IMG/VR virus record: IMGVR_UViG_3300017991_000200
Span: 1-40,708 of that record
DNA length: 40,708 bases
Source of the DNA: a virus
Reading direction: 5' to 3' (one strand)
The notes below the pieces were generated by a model. The model was not told where the DNA came from. It did no database searches and saw only the letters and a list, made by a program, of their open reading frames with translations. Below are positions 996 to 28,020 of the stretch, piece after piece (position 1 is the stretch's first letter; every line of letters begins with the position of its first letter). A program made the position numbers and the translations under genes.

Positions 996-1433
996 ATGCT
1001 ACAGGAAGTGAAAGAGTACTTCGAGAGTAAAGGGTTTGAATATATATCCCATAGTAGGGTATTTCAGAGACTCGCTACAGAAGGCGAGTTTGGACCTTAT
1101 GTTACCATATTTGAAAAGAAGGCATACTCTATATACCTTGAGGAAACTGGGAAGCAATTCCCTACATACTCAAGGGATAGTATCCCTGTTGGTACTGAGG
1201 TATGGGTACCAGTATATGGTACTTGTACTCTAGAGAAGAGTAGGGAATGGTATAGTGGGAGGATGAAGATATGGAGTACTGAAGGTGATTATGTCTCTGG
1301 TAATCCTGAGACTGTAGGGGAGAGGTTTTCTTTTGGTGATCGTACTTTAGTGTCGTGGGAGTACATAGAGGATAATGCTCGTGGGTTGTTAAACGAGCTA
1401 CAGGGTATTCCCTATTATTATCCTATTAAGTGA
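996..1433 (+). CDS. hypothetical protein, cassette partner of the Csx15-like gene
   Basis: A 145-residue soluble protein starting at the ATG at 996, 7 bases after AGGAGG (983-988). A longer in-frame start at 903 has no ribosome-binding site. It is rich in aromatic residues and acidic overall, with no cysteine cluster or membrane segment, and I recognise no domain. Its leader (AGGAGGTTTTAGTATG) is nearly the same as that of the next gene (AGGAGGTTTAGTATG), and its stop codon abuts the next ribosome-binding site. The two therefore form a two-gene cassette. An anti-defence role is guessed only from that neighbour. Confidence 0.65.
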   Translation: MLQEVKEYFESKGFEYISHSRVFQRLATEGEFGPYVTIFEKKAYSIYLEETGKQFPTYSRDSIPVGTEVWVPVYGTCTLEKSREWYSGRMKIWSTEGDYVSGNPETVGERFSFGDRTLVSWEYIEDNARGLLNELQGIPYYYPIK

Positions 1434-1444
1434 GGAGGTTTAGT

Positions 1445-1759
1445 ATGGTTATATACAATTTTAGTCATCCTTTGTTGGATGAGGTAGTGAAGAAGGTAGA
1501 GAAGAAGGTTGGGGAGAAGGTTTCTTGCGTTAATATTAAGGTGCAGGTTGATGATGATCATAGTATTACTTCGCAAATGGTTGATATTATGGATGGTATC
1601 AATTTTGATGGTAATCCTATTATCGTTAATTTGCCAGGATTATCCGTTGCCGCTGCGGAGGTGGTAAGGTATTTAGATGAGCGAGGGATACCTTACCAGA
1701 TATTGCGTTTGCGAAGAGTAGGTACTCCCCCCAAGTTTATATTTTCAGAATTGTTCTAG
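1445..1759 (+). CDS. Csx15-like protein, candidate type III anti-CRISPR
   Basis: The 104-residue product starts at the ATG 6 bases after AGGAGG (1433-1438). It has the signature I associate with the CRISPR-associated Csx15 family: an N-terminal beta strand running into NFSHPL (residues 5-10), a mid-protein IVNLPGLSVAAA (60-71) and a C-terminal TPPKF strand (94-98). The length fits that family. Csx15 genes occur beside type III CRISPR loci and have been proposed as ring nucleases, which remove the cyclic oligoadenylate second messenger. A phage copy would plausibly blunt type III immunity, as AcrIII-1 does. The assignment rests on remembered motifs, not on a search. It could instead be a related nucleotide-binding protein. 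Confidence 0.68.
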   Translation: MVIYNFSHPLLDEVVKKVEKKVGEKVSCVNIKVQVDDDHSITSQMVDIMDGINFDGNPIIVNLPGLSVAAAEVVRYLDERGIPYQILRLRRVGTPPKFIFSELF

Positions 1760-1829: not shown

Positions 1830-2033
1830 GGGGATGGAGCTCGATGGGGAGCTTGTACTGAGTATGTATTATGAGGAGGATAGTCAGATCGACTATCTTT
1901 CCTTTGCTGGCGAATACTAGGTACTGTAATATAGCCACATGTTTGCGGGAGTTGCCAGTACCGTGTGACATGATAAAGCTATAAAAACGGAATTCATTTT
2001 CCGTTGGTGTAGGTTCGAATCCTACCATCCCCT
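1830..2033 (+). ncRNA. tRNA-like RNA split by a structured insert
   Basis: The ends match a tRNA: acceptor stem GGGGATG (1830-1836) pairs perfectly with CATCCCC (2026-2032), a D-arm-like stem AGCTC/GAGCT lies at 1838-1853, and a canonical T arm GTAGG-TTCGAAT-CCTAC lies at 2009-2025. CCA is not encoded. Between D and T arms are about 155 bases instead of about 25. They hold an extended hairpin around GATAGTC/GACTATC, a 7-bp stem GGTACTG/CAGTACC (1920-1926 with 1956-1962) interleaved with TATAGC/GCTATA (1930-1935 with 1978-1983) as a pseudoknot, and a 7-bp hairpin at 1986-2005 whose loop contains CAT. No normal anticodon arm is clear. It could be an intron-bearing tRNA, a tmRNA-like RNA or a tRNA mimic. 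Confidence 0.55.
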
Positions 2034-3950: not shown

Positions 3951-5015
3951 ATGAGAAAATATAATAGACCTGTTGAAGTAAGTATTGAATTATCCCAAAG
4001 ATGCCCTCTGAGATGTATACACTGCAGCTCAGAAGGTATGGATAATGTAGATACTAGTAATGAGCTATCTCATGAAAAGTGGCTAGATGTAATAGATCAG
4101 GCTGGTGAATTAAGAGCCCATGTATTAAGCATCAGTGGTGGAGAGCCACTAGTGTACCCTAACATATTCGATATATTAGAGTATGCGAAACTTGTTGACG
4201 TAGGGAAAATTCTATTGTATACTACTGGGTGTGTTGGTATAAATGGTGATGGTACACCAATAATGATGGATATAGATTCCAAATTTATGGAATATAATAT
4301 TGGCAGTATTACATTTATATTTTCCTTGCATTCCCCTGATCCCAGAACTCATGATAGTATAGTGGGTGTGGATGGTATGTGGGAAGAAGAAACCAAACTG
4401 ATTAAACAAATCGCTGATAGAGGTGGTGAGGTATGGGTACATACTGTTCCTATGAGACATACCTATACAGCACTCCCCGATATGAGGGAGCTGTGTGATG
4501 ACTTAGGAGTTACTAAAATGTCTGCACTGAGGTTTGTACCTCAAGGAAGAGGTGCGGATACTCGATTGGCAACGAGCCACACTCAGTTCCTACATATGCA
4601 ACGGATCTTGGCAGATATGGTGGAAGATAATCCTTCTCACATAGCCAAAATTAGATTGGGATGTCCCATTGATTTTAGGTTTCTGTTAGGGGGATATAAC
4701 ACTAAGAAGAAATGCCATGCAGGGGATATGATACTAATCAGACCAGATGGAAGTGTTCATCCTTGTGCGGCGTGGAAGACACTCCCCACCACTCTAAATG
4801 TGAAGGATCACTCTCTACAGACAGTGTGGGAAGATTGCGAAGTATTAAATTTTCTTCGCGATTTCCATGAGAATCCCACTTGCGCAAAGGGATGCCGACA
4901 CTTAGAATTATGCGGAGGGGGATGTTTAGCGCAAAGGTTGCATAGTGGTAAGGGAGAAGTTATAGAGGATCTTATCACCATGCCCCCAGATCCCCTATGT
5001 GGGCATAGTAATTAG
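3951..5015 (+). CDS. radical SAM/SPASM enzyme
   Basis: A 354-residue radical SAM enzyme that should cleave S-adenosylmethionine at a 4Fe-4S cluster to make a 5'-deoxyadenosyl radical. The cluster motif CxxxCxxC is C18, C22, C25, followed by SGGEP about 100 bases later in the barrel. The last third is a SPASM region: a cysteine followed by GSVHPC, then CAKGCRHLELCGGGC and a final cysteine, which normally bind auxiliary clusters. SPASM enzymes usually modify peptides or proteins (RiPP maturases, sulfatase maturases). No obvious precursor peptide lies beside it. It sits alone between two promoter-like sites. Substrate unknown, possibly a phage structural protein or host peptide. Confidence 0.85.
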   Translation: MRKYNRPVEVSIELSQRCPLRCIHCSSEGMDNVDTSNELSHEKWLDVIDQAGELRAHVLSISGGEPLVYPNIFDILEYAKLVDVGKILLYTTGCVGINGDGTPIMMDIDSKFMEYNIGSITFIFSLHSPDPRTHDSIVGVDGMWEEETKLIKQIADRGGEVWVHTVPMRHTYTALPDMRELCDDLGVTKMSALRFVPQGRGADTRLATSHTQFLHMQRILADMVEDNPSHIAKIRLGCPIDFRFLLGGYNTKKKCHAGDMILIRPDGSVHPCAAWKTLPTTLNVKDHSLQTVWEDCEVLNFLRDFHENPTCAKGCRHLELCGGGCLAQRLHSGKGEVIEDLITMPPDPLCGHSN

Positions 5016-11012: not shown

Positions 11013-13220
11013 GTGAGTATATACGATACCGTATTGAAGAGATACTTAATAGATGGCGAGGATTCTTTAGAGGATGTAATCGATAGAGTAGTTAAATATG
11101 TGGGAGTAGGAAATAATATTATGCGCAGTAATAGATTTCTACCTAATTCCCCTACTCTGATGAATGCAGGTACACCTCATGGGCAATTATCAGCATGTTT
11201 CGTAGTGCCGCTAGAAGATAGCATGACTTCCATTATGGATGTAATGAGGCAAGTGGCACTGATACAAAAGTCTGGGGGAGGTACAGGCTATGCACTATCT
11301 AGATTGAGACCCAAAGGATATGCAGTGGGATCTACAGGAGGTATTGCTAGTGGACCCGTCAGTTTTTTGAAAATGTACGATGTAATGGTGGGAACCATTA
11401 AGCAAGGCGGTAGAAGACGTGGTGCTAGTATGGCAGCTATGGATGTACATCACCCAGATATATTAGAATTCATATGCTGCAAAGAAGGGGAAAATACTAT
11501 CACTAATCATAATATATCTGTAGTAGTAGATGATGATTTCATGAATTCTACTTTACATGATAACCCCATTTCTTTAACTTTTGATGGCGAGATACGTGGT
11601 TCTGTATCTGCAAATAGAATATTGGATGATATAGCACAAGGTATGTGGGAGAATGGAGAGCCTGGGATATTATTTGGCGATACTATGAATAGGTATAACC
11701 CCACTCCCCATCTAGGAGAATATTTAACAACTAATCCCTGTGGGGAGAAACCATTACTTCCGTACGAGAGCTGTAATTTGGGAAGTATAAATTTAAGAGC
11801 TCATGTGAAGAATGGAACCATAAATTGGGATTTACTTCATGATACTATAGTTACAGCAGTGGATATGTTAGATCGCATAATAGATGTCAATTGCTATCCC
11901 ATACCTTCAATAAAACATCGCACTCAAGATACTAGAAAAATTGGACTGGGCGTGATGGGATTTGCAGACATGCTATCAATGGTAGGAGTAAGCTATAATT
12001 CTCCGGAAGCGATAGATATAGCATATACTGTGATGGAATTTATCAATTATACTGCCACTCACACTTCTATGGTATTGGCGCAAGAGCGCGGCAGTTTTCC
12101 AGAGTATGGCGAGTCGCTATACACCAAAGACTATTGGAGAAGTATTAGATGCACAAAAATTGATTACACCCCAGATAAGGATATATTGAATAAGGTATAT
12201 GGTGATGATATACAAGATATAAACTGGGAAGAATTATATACTTCTATAAGCCATAATGGTATACGTAATGCTACTCGTACAAGCATAGCTCCCACTGGTA
12301 GTATTAGTATATTATCTGGTGTAAATGGTGGAATAGAGCCATACTTCAGATTGGCATATAGACGTAAAGTAGTGGTGGGAGATGAAGAGGAAGAGTATAC
12401 TGTACTGAATAGCACATTATGTGAGTATCTATTGCAGCAACAAATAGAGATAACTGATGAATTAGTAGAAAACTTGTGTGATGGTAATGATATAGGAAAT
12501 CTAGTAAGTGAAGATGTAAATGAGGAAATACATAAATTATTTCCTATATCAGAAGACATACCTTTGGGACAACACATCAGTATAGCTGCAGCATTTCAAG
12601 CATATACCGATAGTGCAGTAAGTAAAACTATAAATGTGAGTAATGGTACTTCAGTGGATGACATAAAAAGTACCATACATAAAGCGCATGATGTAGGTTT
12701 GAAAGGCATCACCATATACAGAGCAGGAAGTAGAGATAGGGAGGTAATCTCCCTACATAATAATTCTGATGATAGTTCACCTAATATCAAACATATCAGA
12801 CCTTCTACTATGGAAGGTCGCACAACTAAGATGGCTTTAGGTTGTGGTAAAAGCCTCTACGTGACTGCTAATAGATATAGATCAAAAGAGTTGGCAGAAG
12901 TATTTCTAACTGCTGGCAATTCAGGAGGATGTACTAATGCAATGTTAGAGGCATTAGGAAGAGTAATTTCTATATCTTTGAGATATGGTGTACCTTGCGA
13001 TGCTATAGTTGAGCAATTGCTAGGTATACGATGCTCTGCTCCTGCTTGGGGTAATGGTGGAAAAGTTCTGAGTTGCCCCCACGCAGTGGGAATGGTGTTG
13101 TCTGGAGATGCAAAACCCACTTTCTCTCCAGATTATCCTGAGTGCCCTGATTGCGGAGAAATGTTAGTGAATGAAGAAGGATGTACCATATGTAAGGCAT
13201 GTGGTTGGTCTAAGTGTTAA
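11013..13220 (+). CDS. nrdJ: class II (adenosylcobalamin) ribonucleotide reductase
   Basis: A 735-residue adenosylcobalamin-dependent ribonucleotide reductase, which converts ribonucleotides to deoxyribonucleotides. GTG start with AGGAG 9 bases upstream. Catalytic residues in the expected order are C62 (in LSACFVV), the N241-x-C243-x-E245 site and C254 (in ESCNLGSINL). A later TSCPD-type region starts at CGKSLYVTA. The tail ends with CPDCGEM and CKACGWSKC, a redox-shuttle or zinc-binding tail typical of class II enzymes. Being B12-dependent and oxygen-independent, it needs only cobalamin supply from the host. It sits with a MazG-like protein, a ThyX-like protein and the replication genes. Confidence 0.93.
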   Translation: MSIYDTVLKRYLIDGEDSLEDVIDRVVKYVGVGNNIMRSNRFLPNSPTLMNAGTPHGQLSACFVVPLEDSMTSIMDVMRQVALIQKSGGGTGYALSRLRPKGYAVGSTGGIASGPVSFLKMYDVMVGTIKQGGRRRGASMAAMDVHHPDILEFICCKEGENTITNHNISVVVDDDFMNSTLHDNPISLTFDGEIRGSVSANRILDDIAQGMWENGEPGILFGDTMNRYNPTPHLGEYLTTNPCGEKPLLPYESCNLGSINLRAHVKNGTINWDLLHDTIVTAVDMLDRIIDVNCYPIPSIKHRTQDTRKIGLGVMGFADMLSMVGVSYNSPEAIDIAYTVMEFINYTATHTSMVLAQERGSFPEYGESLYTKDYWRSIRCTKIDYTPDKDILNKVYGDDIQDINWEELYTSISHNGIRNATRTSIAPTGSISILSGVNGGIEPYFRLAYRRKVVVGDEEEEYTVLNSTLCEYLLQQQIEITDELVENLCDGNDIGNLVSEDVNEEIHKLFPISEDIPLGQHISIAAAFQAYTDSAVSKTINVSNGTSVDDIKSTIHKAHDVGLKGITIYRAGSRDREVISLHNNSDDSSPNIKHIRPSTMEGRTTKMALGCGKSLYVTANRYRSKELAEVFLTAGNSGGCTNAMLEALGRVISISLRYGVPCDAIVEQLLGIRCSAPAWGNGGKVLSCPHAVGMVLSGDAKPTFSPDYPECPDCGEMLVNEEGCTICKACGWSKC

Positions 13221-13881: not shown

Positions 13882-14744
13882 TAAGTGATAATATAGATGT
13901 ATTAGAGTTGAATAGAAGAATGTTAGAGGTTTCCGATGTATTATCGGAGGAGGTTATAAGATGGGCAAAGCACATAGGGTATGACTACGATATGAAACAT
14001 AACTTATTTAGAATGGTTAAGCCTGCAAATATACCTAACGATTACTTACTGGACCGCATAACGCAGTATATATGTACTGCTAGTAGTGCTATTGTTAATA
14101 TGGACGATATGATAATCACGTATCTTAGGCAAATGAATTTTGTTTATGTAGCTTGGGCACACGGTCTGGGTACTGCTGTAATAGGTGCAAGACTTCCTAA
14201 GAAGAGTCAATACAAAGCCCAAATTATTTGGGATAAGTACAATCCTATGGGGTGCAGGATAGGGGAGGAGGATGAGAAGTTTCTTATCCGGTTGATGAGT
14301 GCGGCAAGTAAGGAAGATGATAGTCACGATAAATTTGGTAGACATACATTTGTCAGTATGTTTGTACGAGGAAGTAGATCATTCTGGCAACAGATGAGCA
14401 CCTACTCCGTAGGTGTATCGAGCCCACAAAGCGAATCAACTATGCACACTATGATGAGTAGAGATGCTTCTCCTTGGGACATATCTAGCGCGTCCCCCGA
14501 TTACACTTTTGATATGCTGAATAATTTGAATGAGAGTATACAAAATGGTGATTTTTTGAAAGCAGTGATGGGGAAGCCAGAGGGCTGGCTGCAAACTCGC
14601 CATATTACATTTACGTATACTACATTGGCTCGTATATACAATCAACGCAAGCACCATAAACATCTGGAGTGGAAATTATTTTTAACTCAATGCGAGATTG
14701 CAGTACCGTATTGGGATCTACTAATTGAAACGAAAGGATACTAG
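13878..14744 (+). CDS. putative ThyX-like protein
   Basis: A 288-residue protein starting at ATG 13878 with AAGGAG upstream, overlapping the exonuclease gene. The segment SRSFWQQMSTYSVG...SESTMHTM and the later IYNQRKHHKHLEWKLF...EI resemble the two conserved regions of flavin-dependent thymidylate synthase ThyX. However, the classical RHRxxSxNExSxRY signature is not recognisable, so it may be a divergent enzyme or a non-catalytic relative. Next to ribonucleotide reductase, a role in dTMP or modified-base synthesis fits. Alternatives cannot be ruled out. Confidence 0.45.
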   Translation: MISDNIDVLELNRRMLEVSDVLSEEVIRWAKHIGYDYDMKHNLFRMVKPANIPNDYLLDRITQYICTASSAIVNMDDMIITYLRQMNFVYVAWAHGLGTAVIGARLPKKSQYKAQIIWDKYNPMGCRIGEEDEKFLIRLMSAASKEDDSHDKFGRHTFVSMFVRGSRSFWQQMSTYSVGVSSPQSESTMHTMMSRDASPWDISSASPDYTFDMLNNLNESIQNGDFLKAVMGKPEGWLQTRHITFTYTTLARIYNQRKHHKHLEWKLFLTQCEIAVPYWDLLIETKGY

Positions 14745-14745
14745 T

Positions 14746-15537
14746 ATGGGTAAAAGAGAAAGACATCCTGGGGATGGAGGGATTCCCTTCATAATATTAA
14801 CAGGGGAGAGGTGTGGTGGGACATTACTATCTCATCTATTAGATAGTCACCCACGTGTGCTGTGCCATAAAGGAGAGATACTATCTAATAAACACTGGTT
14901 GGCTAGATATACTAATAATGCTGTAGAGAAACTAACTTGCGCATTTAATATGCCTGGATACTTGGCTTGCGGAGTGAAAATCTTGTTTGGCGATGCGCCT
15001 GATGGGAGTTATCTCAAAAAGCATATATTAGAGGAAAGATATCCAATAATTATACTAGTTAGAAATCCCTTGCGTTCCTATGTATCCTTAATCATCTCAA
15101 GAACTAGAGAAGAATTGGGGAATAGTGCCCATACATACCGCACATTGAATGAGGTACACGTTATATTAGATATACCGTCAACCATAGAGTATATTATGTA
15201 CCATCTAGGGGAGTACAAGTGGTGGATGAATTACTCCAGGCAAAACGAGTCTACAACCACCGTGTTGGAGTACATAGATATAGCTCAAAATTTGCAACCA
15301 TATTATGGGGAATATAGTGACGAGATACCAGAATATCATTATATGGACAGACCGAGAATAAATGGTTTATCTTGTATTGATGGCGGTAAACTGATATCGT
15401 ATACTCAGATAGCCAATCCCAAGCGCATGGAATATCTAGTACGCAACTATGAGGAATTAGAGAAAGCCATGATAGATGTTGGATACTCTCATTGGTTGAA
15501 CGATACTGAGAGCGTCATACCTTATATAGCAACATAA
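14746..15537 (+). CDS. sulfotransferase-like protein
   Basis: A 263-residue protein, starting at ATG 14746 eight bases after AAAGGA. The N-terminal P-loop-like segment TGERCGGTLLSHLLDSHP (residues 19-36) matches the 5'-phosphosulfate-binding loop of sulfotransferases, and LVRNPLRSYVS (105-113) matches the 3'-phosphate-binding site with its arginine and serine. Such enzymes move sulfate from PAPS to sugars, proteins or small molecules. It is the last gene of the plus-strand block, apart from the structural genes. The acceptor is unknown; host surface glycans or glycosylated virion parts are plausible. Confidence 0.75.
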   Translation: MGKRERHPGDGGIPFIILTGERCGGTLLSHLLDSHPRVLCHKGEILSNKHWLARYTNNAVEKLTCAFNMPGYLACGVKILFGDAPDGSYLKKHILEERYPIIILVRNPLRSYVSLIISRTREELGNSAHTYRTLNEVHVILDIPSTIEYIMYHLGEYKWWMNYSRQNESTTTVLEYIDIAQNLQPYYGEYSDEIPEYHYMDRPRINGLSCIDGGKLISYTQIANPKRMEYLVRNYEELEKAMIDVGYSHWLNDTESVIPYIAT

Positions 15538-23121: not shown

Positions 23122-26100
23122 TTATGCAGCTCCCATTCTATATAGTAAATTCATAGCTTGTAAATCTTCTATGATAGATGCTTCTGATTGATCATTAGCG
23201 TAATTAGCATTGACTTGCCAATTGTTATGGGTGCTTTGCTCTATATGCCTGATATCCCCTCCACCACTCATACTTGGCGGATTATATGTAGGAGTTGAAG
23301 ATACACCCACAGCTCCTGATATAGAACCTTTAAGACCTACATTTATTTCTTTCCAATCATTAACTAAGGTATCCTCTAGCCTATCTCGCAAATTTTGCGC
23401 CGCATTAAGTAGTATATCTGCATTCTCTAACGGTTTTGCCATGCCTTCTACTACATACCCAAATAGCTCAAGCATCACCTCCGATGGAGAGGCAATACCT
23501 AATAATCTTTTTATCCAATCTACAAAATTCCCAATTAAGTTCTGTACCCCATCACGTAGACTTCCCCAACTGTCTCTCAACCCTTGCCATATACCATCAA
23601 CTATATCACTGCCTATCTCTGTAAATCTATCTGAGAAGTTACTGAATGAATTGGCTATATCATCAATTAACCCACTAACTGCATCTATTACAGTATCTGT
23701 GGCATTAGATATACCTTCTCTGACTTTATCCCATATCTCATTGAACGCGTCTACTACAGCAGACGCTTTTTCGGATATGGCGGAAGCTATATTGCCCATA
23801 GCTTCTATAACCGCATTTACTATATCATTCCAATAGGTTACAAAAGAGTCGTATAGATTAGATAGCCAATTAAGCACCCACTCTAATATGGCTTGGAACT
23901 TCTCCATAATAAACGTGTACATATTTTCTAACCATGTAGTAGTAGTTAATAGAATATTTTCCCACTGCGTGCGGAAATTCTCAAGCATTCTTTGCAATAG
24001 TTCTATAAGCCACTGATATATTTGATTTAATTTATCAGTTATGGCACTATTCATATTATTTAACCATGTGCCTGTAGTTTTGAATACCGTATCCCAATTC
24101 CCTTTGAATGCCTCACTCACCAAACCCAATACATCATCCACTACCTTTTTGGCAGCATTCAATTTGGTATCAATATCTTCTCTAGTCAATCCTAACAAAC
24201 TGGCAGTAGTATTTAATACAGCATTCCAACCTTCTGTGAACTTATTAGATATGGAATCCATCACTTCGCTTATCCTAGTGCGTATACCTTCTGTATTCTC
24301 ACTCACTGATACCGCTAATCCATTTATGGCTTCTGTAGCACTATCCCGTATATTGGTCCAAGCATTTACCATGAACTGCCCTACACCCTCCAACATACTG
24401 AATAATGCCTCTCCCATAGAAGCAAACGAGTCAATTATACCATTAACTATATCTGGAACTATGGAGTTCCCTACCAACACCTCCCATAATCCTGTAAATA
24501 TGGCTATTATACCATCTATAGTCCCTTGTATGGTACTTATAACTACTGTTTTTAATCCATCCCATATATTTTGTATACCCTCTACTACAGAATTCATGGA
24601 ATCTATCATGGCTCCCTTCCAATCGCCACCTGTGAATAGAGCCACTAGAACGTTTATTATACCACTTATAAATCCTGTTAAGGATGTGAGAAGCCCACTG
24701 ATTATCTGCACCACCCCAGCTATGTTAGCACCAATGCTGGGCAACACGGCACTTATGTAATCTACAAATACTTTGAATGCTACAACCAGTACACCTGTAA
24801 CTAATGCAGCCAATGCTCCTAATGCTGGTAATACGTTATTGGCTATATTATCCCATAAACTCTTGAGGGCAGGTATTGCAGGCTGTAATGCCTCAGCAAA
24901 CCCTTTAATCCCTTTCCCTAGACGTTCTACAGATGGGGCAAACATATCACCAACCGTTTTAGCAGCATTACCCAAAGTATCTATAAATCCGGACAGATCT
25001 ACACCTGTGAATTCCTCTATGCCACTGAGCATATTTGCCCATAATTCTTCGGTTCTTCCCTTGACGCTGTTTCCTATTCCACCCCAATTTATATCACTTA
25101 GTTTGGCGGATATGGTATCTTTCACATTGGATATGGTATCTCCAGTAACACGTAATGCATTATCCCACATACCAGATGCAGCACTTGCTACATCACCACC
25201 TAATTTCCCCCAATCAATTCCCCCAAGCATGCTAGTCAATGCATCCCATATTAACCCAGCCACATCCTTAGATATATTAAATACCCCGTTCCATAGTGTA
25301 CTAGCTGCAGAAGCCACAGTACTACCCACTTTGCCCCAATCTATACTATTAAATAGATTGGTTAATGCAGTAGTGATGGTAGATAGTACATTACCACTAA
25401 TACTCATAACGCTGTCCCACAAAGCACTAGTTGCTGACGCTACAGTATCCCCTACTTTCTTCCAATCTATATTTTTGAATAGATTAGTTATAGCACTCCA
25501 TACATAAGATAGTACATCACTACCTATACCAAATGCAAATTGCCATAGCACTATAACTTTTTCACCTAACCAATTGCCTAATGTCGCCCAATCTATTTTA
25601 CCTAGCAAATCAAATAGCGCATTAGTTAATGTAGCCAATAGTTCAGAACCTATATTAGCTATTTGCCCAAATAGCCAAGTCAGAGAACCAGAAGCCATCT
25701 CTGCTATTGAACCCCAATCTATCTCAGTAAATGAGGATATAGCACCTTCCCAATTTCCTTTACCTAACTGCCCAAACCCGTCAATTAGATCATACACCAC
25801 ATTGGTTAATTCCTCAGCTTTTTTGGCCAACCCCTCTGGAAGAAGTTCTCCCCATGGATATTCCCTACTGAATACCCCACTATACATATCCATTGCTACT
25901 CTTCGTAAAGTATTCAACCCATCAGCAAATTTCTCAGCCGTTCCTACCATAGAAGAAGGGAGAACCTTGCTCCAATCAAAGAATTCTATATTACCAGACA
26001 TGAAGAAAGATAACGCGGATCTTATATTACTTACAGAATTTTCTACAAAAGATGTAATATTAGATAGAGCACGCCCTATCTTTTGGGCAGCAATTTGCAT

Positions 26101-28020
26101 GCCTTCTGGTAGATCCGTGATCCAATCATTATACACATCACCATCTTGTACTACAGCAAGTAAGTATTTACCTAGAGTTTTCAGTACACCAAAAAATCCA
26201 CTTATAGAAGATATATTATTAGAAGCAACCACACCTATCCCTGCTATAGCTGCTGCCAATAACCCTAATGGCGATATCAGCACACCTAATGCCCCCACAG
26301 CAGTACCCAGTACAGTAATAAATCCTCCTAGTGCTATTAAAATTGGACCGATGGCTGCACCAGCTGCAGCCAGTGCAGCAGCCCAATATAGTGTATCTTC
26401 ATCTAATTGAGTCACCCACTCTATAACTTTTATCAACCCATTAACTAATGGATCTATAAACTTAGATGTGAACTTACTGAAATCTAAGGATGAGAATCTA
26501 TCTACTAATCTAGATACAGCACCTAGTAGTGGTGTAAATGCTTTGGTGATGGAGTTGCCTAGTTTTATTTTCATAGTATCTACGCTTCCAGACAACGCTT
26601 CTACCACACCATTCCAAGTGCCCATTTTTGCGTTCATTACATCGCCAGCTACAGCAGCACCAGCTATGGCATCTTCCATCCCTTCCCAACCTTCTATACC
26701 ATCATCCAGCAGGGATTGCATAGCTTTCATACCATATGTACCTGCTAGTGTCTGTATATATTGGTTCTTTTGCTCTTGGGTGAGTTCCCTGACTACCTCA
26801 GTACCAGTTTTTTGTTTGGCAATCAAAGGATCCATAGCTTTGGAGGTATTTACCAACACTTGCCGTAATTCTGATAATTTCTCATTACGAGCTTCTTCAT
26901 CTAGATTAGCACCTTTTATACCGGAAGTGTAATCACTAAGAGATTGCTGTGTGCGCTGATATATCTTCTGTAATCTATCTAATTCACTTTGTTCGGATTT
27001 AGTGAGTGCCCCATGGTACTCAATTATGGTGGCATTATCCCCTAGTGCTTTAGAGAAACTATCTACCAATTCAGGCAACTCTTTCATATTGCCTTGACTA
27101 TCGTATAGTTGTATATTCAGGTCACTTAATGCCTCTGTGACTGAATCCGTTGGGCGCATGATATTGGTGAGCATACTCTTCAATGCAGTACCTGCTTCCC
27201 CGCCTTGTATACCCCGTTGACTCAACAGAGCCAACGCAGTATTTACATCTTCTAGAGAAAATCCGAATGCTGCTGCAGTAGGTCCAATATTAGTCAATGC
27301 TTGACCTATATCACTCACTTCCATAACGCTGGCATCTGCAGCCTGCACAAAGTTATTAACTATATCTGTGGCATCTTCGGCTTCCCTACCAAATGTAGCC
27401 ATAGCAATACTCAACAGATCGCTACTCTCAGCCATTGACATGCCACTTGCAGTAGCCAAATTGAGAACAGCTTCTAGTGTTCCTGTGGTACCACCCAACT
27501 CATTTATAGCTTCTGTAAGAGTGATGCCCTCTTTGCTGGCCAAAGCCAATGCTGCACCCATCCCTCCGGCTTCCTCAGATACTGTACCCATTACCTCATC
27601 AGCCTGTTGCCCTGCTTTCAAAAGACCCAGCATTGCCTCTGCAGACTCTGTAGCACCAAATACAGAGTCTGCACCCATTTTGAGTGCGAATTCCCCTATC
27701 CGTTCCATATCATAGCCAGCATCTTTGGTAGCAACTTGTATTAGAGCCATTTGATCTTGGAACTCGCCTGCAGAATCTACGGCAGTATTTACCAGCCCAA
27801 CCATAGGTTTGGTGAGCTTATCTGCTAATATATTTCCTACATCGGCTACATTATGACCTACATCAGCCAAATTGGATCCAAACGTTTGCCATCCTTTGGA
27901 TGCTTTAGTTATAAAATTATCTGTAGCTGTATCCATTTTCTTCAAACCATTTTCATAGGCTTGAAGACCTTTATTGAAGTCAGATACATCTGCTACAAGT
28001 CGTATACCTGTTTGTTCCAT
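23122..28020 (-). CDS. tail tape measure protein
   Basis: A 1632-residue protein that sets tail length. The N-terminal third is a TP901-type tape measure domain (GEFQDQMALIQVATKDAGYD, then helices with TASGMSMAESSDLL and QRGIQGGEAGTALKSML). Several hydrophobic segments occur near residues 570-640, a feature of tape measures that enter the membrane on ejection. From about 860 to 1100 there are tandem units of about 42 residues with IDWGKVG and TLWN-type tryptophans. A long C-terminal helical stretch with tryptophan spacing follows. Its start overlaps the tail chaperone stop (TAATG). Confidence 0.9.
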   Translation of the reverse strand: MEQTGIRLVADVSDFNKGLQAYENGLKKMDTATDNFITKASKGWQTFGSNLADVGHNVADVGNILADKLTKPMVGLVNTAVDSAGEFQDQMALIQVATKDAGYDMERIGEFALKMGADSVFGATESAEAMLGLLKAGQQADEVMGTVSEEAGGMGAALALASKEGITLTEAINELGGTTGTLEAVLNLATASGMSMAESSDLLSIAMATFGREAEDATDIVNNFVQAADASVMEVSDIGQALTNIGPTAAAFGFSLEDVNTALALLSQRGIQGGEAGTALKSMLTNIMRPTDSVTEALSDLNIQLYDSQGNMKELPELVDSFSKALGDNATIIEYHGALTKSEQSELDRLQKIYQRTQQSLSDYTSGIKGANLDEEARNEKLSELRQVLVNTSKAMDPLIAKQKTGTEVVRELTQEQKNQYIQTLAGTYGMKAMQSLLDDGIEGWEGMEDAIAGAAVAGDVMNAKMGTWNGVVEALSGSVDTMKIKLGNSITKAFTPLLGAVSRLVDRFSSLDFSKFTSKFIDPLVNGLIKVIEWVTQLDEDTLYWAAALAAAGAAIGPILIALGGFITVLGTAVGALGVLISPLGLLAAAIAGIGVVASNNISSISGFFGVLKTLGKYLLAVVQDGDVYNDWITDLPEGMQIAAQKIGRALSNITSFVENSVSNIRSALSFFMSGNIEFFDWSKVLPSSMVGTAEKFADGLNTLRRVAMDMYSGVFSREYPWGELLPEGLAKKAEELTNVVYDLIDGFGQLGKGNWEGAISSFTEIDWGSIAEMASGSLTWLFGQIANIGSELLATLTNALFDLLGKIDWATLGNWLGEKVIVLWQFAFGIGSDVLSYVWSAITNLFKNIDWKKVGDTVASATSALWDSVMSISGNVLSTITTALTNLFNSIDWGKVGSTVASAASTLWNGVFNISKDVAGLIWDALTSMLGGIDWGKLGGDVASAASGMWDNALRVTGDTISNVKDTISAKLSDINWGGIGNSVKGRTEELWANMLSGIEEFTGVDLSGFIDTLGNAAKTVGDMFAPSVERLGKGIKGFAEALQPAIPALKSLWDNIANNVLPALGALAALVTGVLVVAFKVFVDYISAVLPSIGANIAGVVQIISGLLTSLTGFISGIINVLVALFTGGDWKGAMIDSMNSVVEGIQNIWDGLKTVVISTIQGTIDGIIAIFTGLWEVLVGNSIVPDIVNGIIDSFASMGEALFSMLEGVGQFMVNAWTNIRDSATEAINGLAVSVSENTEGIRTRISEVMDSISNKFTEGWNAVLNTTASLLGLTREDIDTKLNAAKKVVDDVLGLVSEAFKGNWDTVFKTTGTWLNNMNSAITDKLNQIYQWLIELLQRMLENFRTQWENILLTTTTWLENMYTFIMEKFQAILEWVLNWLSNLYDSFVTYWNDIVNAVIEAMGNIASAISEKASAVVDAFNEIWDKVREGISNATDTVIDAVSGLIDDIANSFSNFSDRFTEIGSDIVDGIWQGLRDSWGSLRDGVQNLIGNFVDWIKRLLGIASPSEVMLELFGYVVEGMAKPLENADILLNAAQNLRDRLEDTLVNDWKEINVGLKGSISGAVGVSSTPTYNPPSMSGGGDIRHIEQSTHNNWQVNANYANDQSEASIIEDLQAMNLLYRMGAA

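Follow-up and report, generated by a model that had tools for sequence, protein, structure and literature searches.

A trimmed Csx15 variant carried by a tailed phage and its possible role in counter-defence against type III CRISPR

Results

A short csx15 gene on a tailed-phage contig

We analysed a 40,708-nucleotide stretch of viral DNA (hereafter, the window), in which an open reading frame on the plus strand (1445–1759) runs from ATG to TAG over 104 codons. Its 104-amino-acid product, P0001, carries the motifs NFSHPL, IVNLPGLSVAAA and TPPKF, and the reverse strand opposite the gene is closed by stops. Read directly from the sequence, an AGGAGG ribosome-binding site (1433–1438, plus strand) lies 6 nucleotides 5′ of the ATG. 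It overlaps with the stop codon that ends the upstream gene (996–1433, plus strand; from the open reading frame list), indicating that the two genes are probably co-transcribed. The 145-amino-acid product of this upstream gene has no Pfam or PHROG match. Directly 3′ of the csx15 gene, positions 1830–2032 (plus strand) encode a stable tRNA-like or tmRNA-like RNA (folding z-score −5.2), with an acceptor-like closing stem (GGGGAUG...CAUCCCC), a T-arm (GUAGG-UUCGAAU-CCUAC) and long inserted arms; neither ARAGORN nor Rfam recognized it.

A tail tape measure gene (23122–28020, minus strand; PF10145, E = 2.3e-36) identifies the window as part of a tailed phage, and minor-tail/Dit genes are also present, so the gene is phage-borne, as the initial annotation had held. 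That annotation had also stated that the window contains no CRISPR array or cas gene; a domain search of the window revealed no Cas10, and no CRISPR-like array was found in it. With both absent and phage structural genes present, we rejected carry-over from a CRISPR locus. The contig, which is linear, is probably incomplete, and a search of it for Terminase_6N found none. Elsewhere, the window encodes a radical SAM/SPASM protein (3951–5015), a ribonucleotide reductase with a TSCPD domain (11013–13220) and a protein with a weak sulfotransferase-like match (14725–15537), and a mostly non-coding stretch (751–875) holds imperfect short tandem repeats of the TTGGGATGCTCAATG type. When the first 20 kb were compared with 400 Chloroflexota genomes, none of the matches was to a CRISPR spacer: cross-hits in the ribonucleotide reductase gene were the strongest, and a single 25-base exact match fell inside ordinary coding sequence. 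DNA and portal-protein searches found no related phages.

P0001 is a divergent member of the Csx15 family

The three motifs had initially been read as the pattern of Csx15, a reading that profile searches uphold. P0001 scores 39.7 bits (E = 5e-10) against NCBIfam NF040560 (CAS_Csx15), passing the curated cut-off of 35 bits, and matches the PADLOC Csx15 profile with E = 3.5e-6; Pfam and PHROGs returned nothing significant. Two further profiles, both built without P0001, each retrieved it as the sole match among the open reading frames of the window. The first, from 81 cellular Csx15 proteins, gave E = 3.6e-15 and 51.1 bits, against a best score of 6.2 bits in 2000 shuffles; the second, from three other shortened phage proteins (described below), gave E = 5.9e-19 and 62.9 bits. 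In the reverse direction, a profile of all four shortened proteins matched 62 of 400 Chloroflexota genomes (best E = 2.5e-26), and the matches that we read were Csx15. The homology of P0001 to Csx15 is beyond doubt. No match to the AcrIII-1 (Crn2) family appeared among the Pfam, NCBIfam, PADLOC and PHROGs results.

Searches with single proteins were less productive. Using tblastn, neither P0001 nor a Csx15 consensus found anything in phage or plasmid collections, consistent with the published absence of Csx15 from phages, and single-protein scans of viral contigs were likewise unsuccessful. The consensus served as a query only; it seeded the first scans and was validated by its match to PDB 9TEU and 9TET, and none of our conclusions depends on it.

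One face of the composite cA4 site is retained

Csx15 is a CARF-superfamily dimer, and crystal packing combined with modelling placed cyclic tetra-adenylate (cA4) between two stacked dimers (PMC13148439). The first face of this composite site comprises Ser9 and His11 in PfCsx15 (His13 in CliCsx15) together with the aromatic F106 or Y113; the opposite face comprises His82 or His90 with Arg116, Arg120 and Arg123, and in CliCsx15 the lining of the phosphate site is formed by arginines from the C-terminal helix (PMC13148439). On the basis of residue numbering, we assigned CliCsx15 to PDB 9TEU and PfCsx15 to PDB 9TET. Residues of P0001 were mapped using these solved sequences and a family alignment of 85 rows, with the numbering checked by residue counting.

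Motif I of P0001 (N5-F6-S7-H8-P9; 1457–1471, plus strand) places H8 at the position of His11 (Pf) and His13 (Cli), which is histidine in 83 of the 85 rows. The alignment likewise places F98 (codon 1736–1738, plus strand) at the base-stacking aromatic (F106 in Pf, Y113 in Cli; PMC13148439), a position occupied by F or Y in every row, and 84 of the 85 rows share R88. The second histidine (His82 in Pf, His90 in Cli) is present in 82 rows; P0001 has D78 there instead (codon 1676–1678, plus strand). Both the alignment and the AlphaFold2 model show the stop codon (1757–1759, plus strand) directly after the last strand, with the C-terminal Arg helix absent, and the GLxxEEWQT segment is also missing. 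Because the second histidine and the Arg helix are both lacking, P0001 is classed, from its sequence, as a variant Csx15 rather than a typical one.

The AlphaFold2 model of P0001 (pLDDT 95.1, pTM 0.85) is a compact, small Rossmann-type fold. Its five strands (2–5, 27–30, 59–62, 84–92 and 97–103) and three helices (12–22, 41–50 and 67–79) follow the order seen in Csx15, as expected of a CARF-like fold. The model ends at strand 97–103, whereas that of a canonical phage protein, L084 (pLDDT 96.9), has additional helices at 57–62 and 114–123, the latter being the Arg helix. Structural comparison was unspecific: a PDB fold search with P0001 returned CARF proteins amid many Rossmann folds, from a library ending in April 2026 whose listed top matches did not include the two Csx15 structures. 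Among predicted viral proteins, the best structural match was BFVD A0A1S5Y369 from an uncultured archaeal virus (123 amino acids, E = 1.4e-4, 18% identity), which may itself be a viral Csx15-like protein.

These residues bear on whether P0001 could cut cA4. PfCsx15 holds on to cA4 and cuts it little or not at all, and H11A abolished sequestration (PMC13148439). CliCsx15, the sole enzymatic Csx15 studied, hydrolyses cA4 slowly and, in E. coli, renders a type III system ineffective; its full activity needs both H13 and H90, with H13A abolishing cleavage and H90A abolishing cA4-induced stacking and leaving very low activity (PMC13148439). Were P0001 an active ring nuclease, cA4 would be hydrolysed by His8, possibly aided by R88 and R90, making the protein an enzymatic anti-CRISPR akin to AcrIII-1. 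The retained motif-I histidine, essential for cleavage by CliCsx15, and the nearly invariant R88 would suit such an enzyme; however, with D78 in the place of H90 and the C-terminal arginines gone, we consider it unlikely.

Csx15 recurs on viral contigs

Profile-guided scans of IMG/VR, which rely on short peptide patterns and therefore miss members, identified Csx15 on ten further contigs, all above the curated NF040560 cut-off. Tail, terminase or portal genes occur on eight of them: terminase and portal (L122), terminase (L127 and L088), Dit and minor tail (L092), baseplate (L084), minor tail and tape measure (L095) and tape measure (L085 and L087). The other two, L086 and L094, have helicase matches and other replication genes recognized by eye, and their viral status is less certain. 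A Cas10 palm domain was found on none of the 11 Csx15-bearing viral contigs, the window included; in a control using the same search, Cas10 lay ~3–7 kb away for five of the six csx15 genes in four cellular genomes (distances computed from coordinates). In a phylogenetic tree, full-length phage Csx15 proteins are scattered among cellular ones; the label changes at least three times, a pattern suggestive of repeated capture. A few kb from csx15, L087 (5825–6484) and L092 (4889–5458 and 5593–6186) encode related genes of one family, present in two copies in L092; the two contigs are otherwise different.

Four phages share a mini form

In P0001 and the proteins of L092, L122 and L127, the chain stops no more than a few residues from the last strand. 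HGRMGYFP and the Arg helix are missing from all four, N-F-[SA]-H-P is retained, and the three other contigs also carry phage structural genes. By contrast, in a profile-based Chloroflexota sample, an HGR-type motif is present in 38 of the 40 cellular matches that we read, the two without it being L162, a frameshifted copy, and L171, a divergent member with IAGRHG. The difference between 38/40 cellular and 0/4 mini proteins gives a Fisher p of about 1e-4, which is illustrative only, as the sequences are related and the count was made by hand. By eye, the Arg helix could be made out in nearly all 40, a stricter script flag having missed variants. The frameshifted copy (G341:C2:594500–595100) is a cellular csx15 split over two frames. 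Among Armatimonadota and Bacillota, a few divergent members lack a plain HGR yet keep the C-terminal helix, and a lone match to the complete profile lies in a short open reading frame cut by a contig end. With three phyla sampled (Chloroflexota, Armatimonadota and Bacillota), we observed the mini form in phages alone.

In the tree, long branches lead to the mini forms, and the data would allow a single origin (p-AU 0.248). Its length, shorter than canonical Csx15, and its long branch could also mark P0001 as a decaying, functionless copy of a captured csx15. Against this, the proteins of three other phages stop at almost the same point past the last strand, the profile built from them recognizes P0001 (62.9 bits), the ribosome-binding site and reading frame are intact, and the fold is predicted with confidence. 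We therefore regard decay as very improbable and rejected the pseudogene reading, the form being common to four phages.

Divergence could instead reflect another ligand, either a nucleotide or a protein, such as the messenger of a different defence system, or a phage function outside type III CRISPR. Half of the cA4 site is missing, the sequence has strongly diverged, and about a quarter of csx15 genes sit in genomes without type III CRISPR (PMC12409355). All four mini forms nevertheless keep motif I and the aromatic, which flank the adenine base and belong to one face of the composite cA4 site; such a change of ligand or function is a minority prospect.

The conserved face suggests a further mechanism, in which it would dock with cA4 beneath a Csx15 dimer of the host or an effector containing a Csx15 domain, and the missing face would then block further stacking. 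Such effectors exist: in L032 (9099–10001, plus strand), a Schlafen AlbA_2–Csx15 fusion that matches PDB 9YLU (CbCash) lies directly upstream of a csx15 gene, so Csx15 domains occur in effector-like proteins too. The capping argument is purely structural, and we hold it to be rather improbable; equally doubtful is the broader proposal that mini-Csx15 is a phage-specific subfamily that ends cA4-driven assemblies of host Csx15 or Schlafen–Csx15 effectors.

Discussion

The locus at 1445–1759 encodes a mini-Csx15, identified by its NF040560 score, independent Csx15 profiles and AlphaFold2. Kinship to Csx15, phage location and the lack of CRISPR genes make counter-defence the simplest reading of this gene. 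The initial annotation had proposed an anti-CRISPR resembling AcrIII-1; the ring-nuclease part of that proposal is weakened, since only the first histidine is kept and the C-terminal helix is gone.

Specifically, we propose, with about an even chance of being right, that mini-Csx15 holds cA4 and so shields the phage from type III CRISPR. In this model, cA4 made by Cas10 would be bound and held by mini-Csx15, and cA4-activated effectors, deprived of it, would stay off. With the motif-I face kept and the opposite face lost, the protein would be expected to act as a sponge, binding cA4 as a single dimer without self-stacking into filaments, and any cutting would be slow or nil. The precedent of PfCsx15 makes a sponge likelier than a nuclease, and both cleavage and capping appear less likely than the sponge role. 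We infer cA4 as the ligand, sequestration over efficient cleavage and the anti-CRISPR benefit, the last from where the gene lies, what its family does and how Csx15 recurs in phages. Two observations speak against a sponge: the phosphate-holding arginines are gone, and the counterpart of H90, required for stacking in CliCsx15, is replaced; cA4 binding may thus be lost altogether in the mini form. Moreover, type III systems make much cA4, and for that reason the authors of PMC13148439 regard sponging as inefficient.

Compared with known systems, P0001 is homologous to Csx15 along its own length, sharing the motif-I S-H, the VNxPG segment, the RLR strand, the aromatic F98 and the five strands. 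It differs in size (104 versus about 125 amino acids), in lacking the GLxxEEWQT helix, the second histidine and the Arg helix, and in being carried by a phage and not beside Cas10. In its proposed mode, holding a defence messenger without destroying it, mini-Csx15 resembles Acb2-type sponges. These act on a different messenger and belong to a different family.

AcrIII-1 (viral Crn2) has the role proposed here, that of a phage protein lowering cA4, but is a separate family and an efficient ring nuclease (PMC12409355, PMC13148439), whereas P0001 lacks half of the Csx15 active site. AcrIII-2, a viral SAVED protein, is likewise a virus-borne member of the CARF/SAVED superfamily for cA4 (PMC12751052), and its catalytic His128 has been equated with His13 of CliCsx15 (PMC13148439); it differs in being a 230-amino-acid SAVED domain related to CalpL that stacks and cuts cA4. 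The C-terminal domain of CbCash is Csx15-like and, as in P0001, lacks the second histidine (Q instead), but it belongs to a cellular effector-like fusion to a Schlafen AlbA_2 domain and keeps the C-terminal helix.

Csx15 was described in 2026 as absent from phage genomes, leading to the suggestion that it may have no anti-CRISPR use (PMC13148439). With Csx15 present on eleven viral contigs, and the trimmed form on four of these, this premise falls, and despite the reported absence Csx15 makes a good candidate blocker of CRISPR for viruses. Capping, if true, would be a new route to disabling cyclic-nucleotide immunity. For the family, the phage Csx15 proteins offer naturally occurring variants in which the two halves of the cA4 site are uncoupled.
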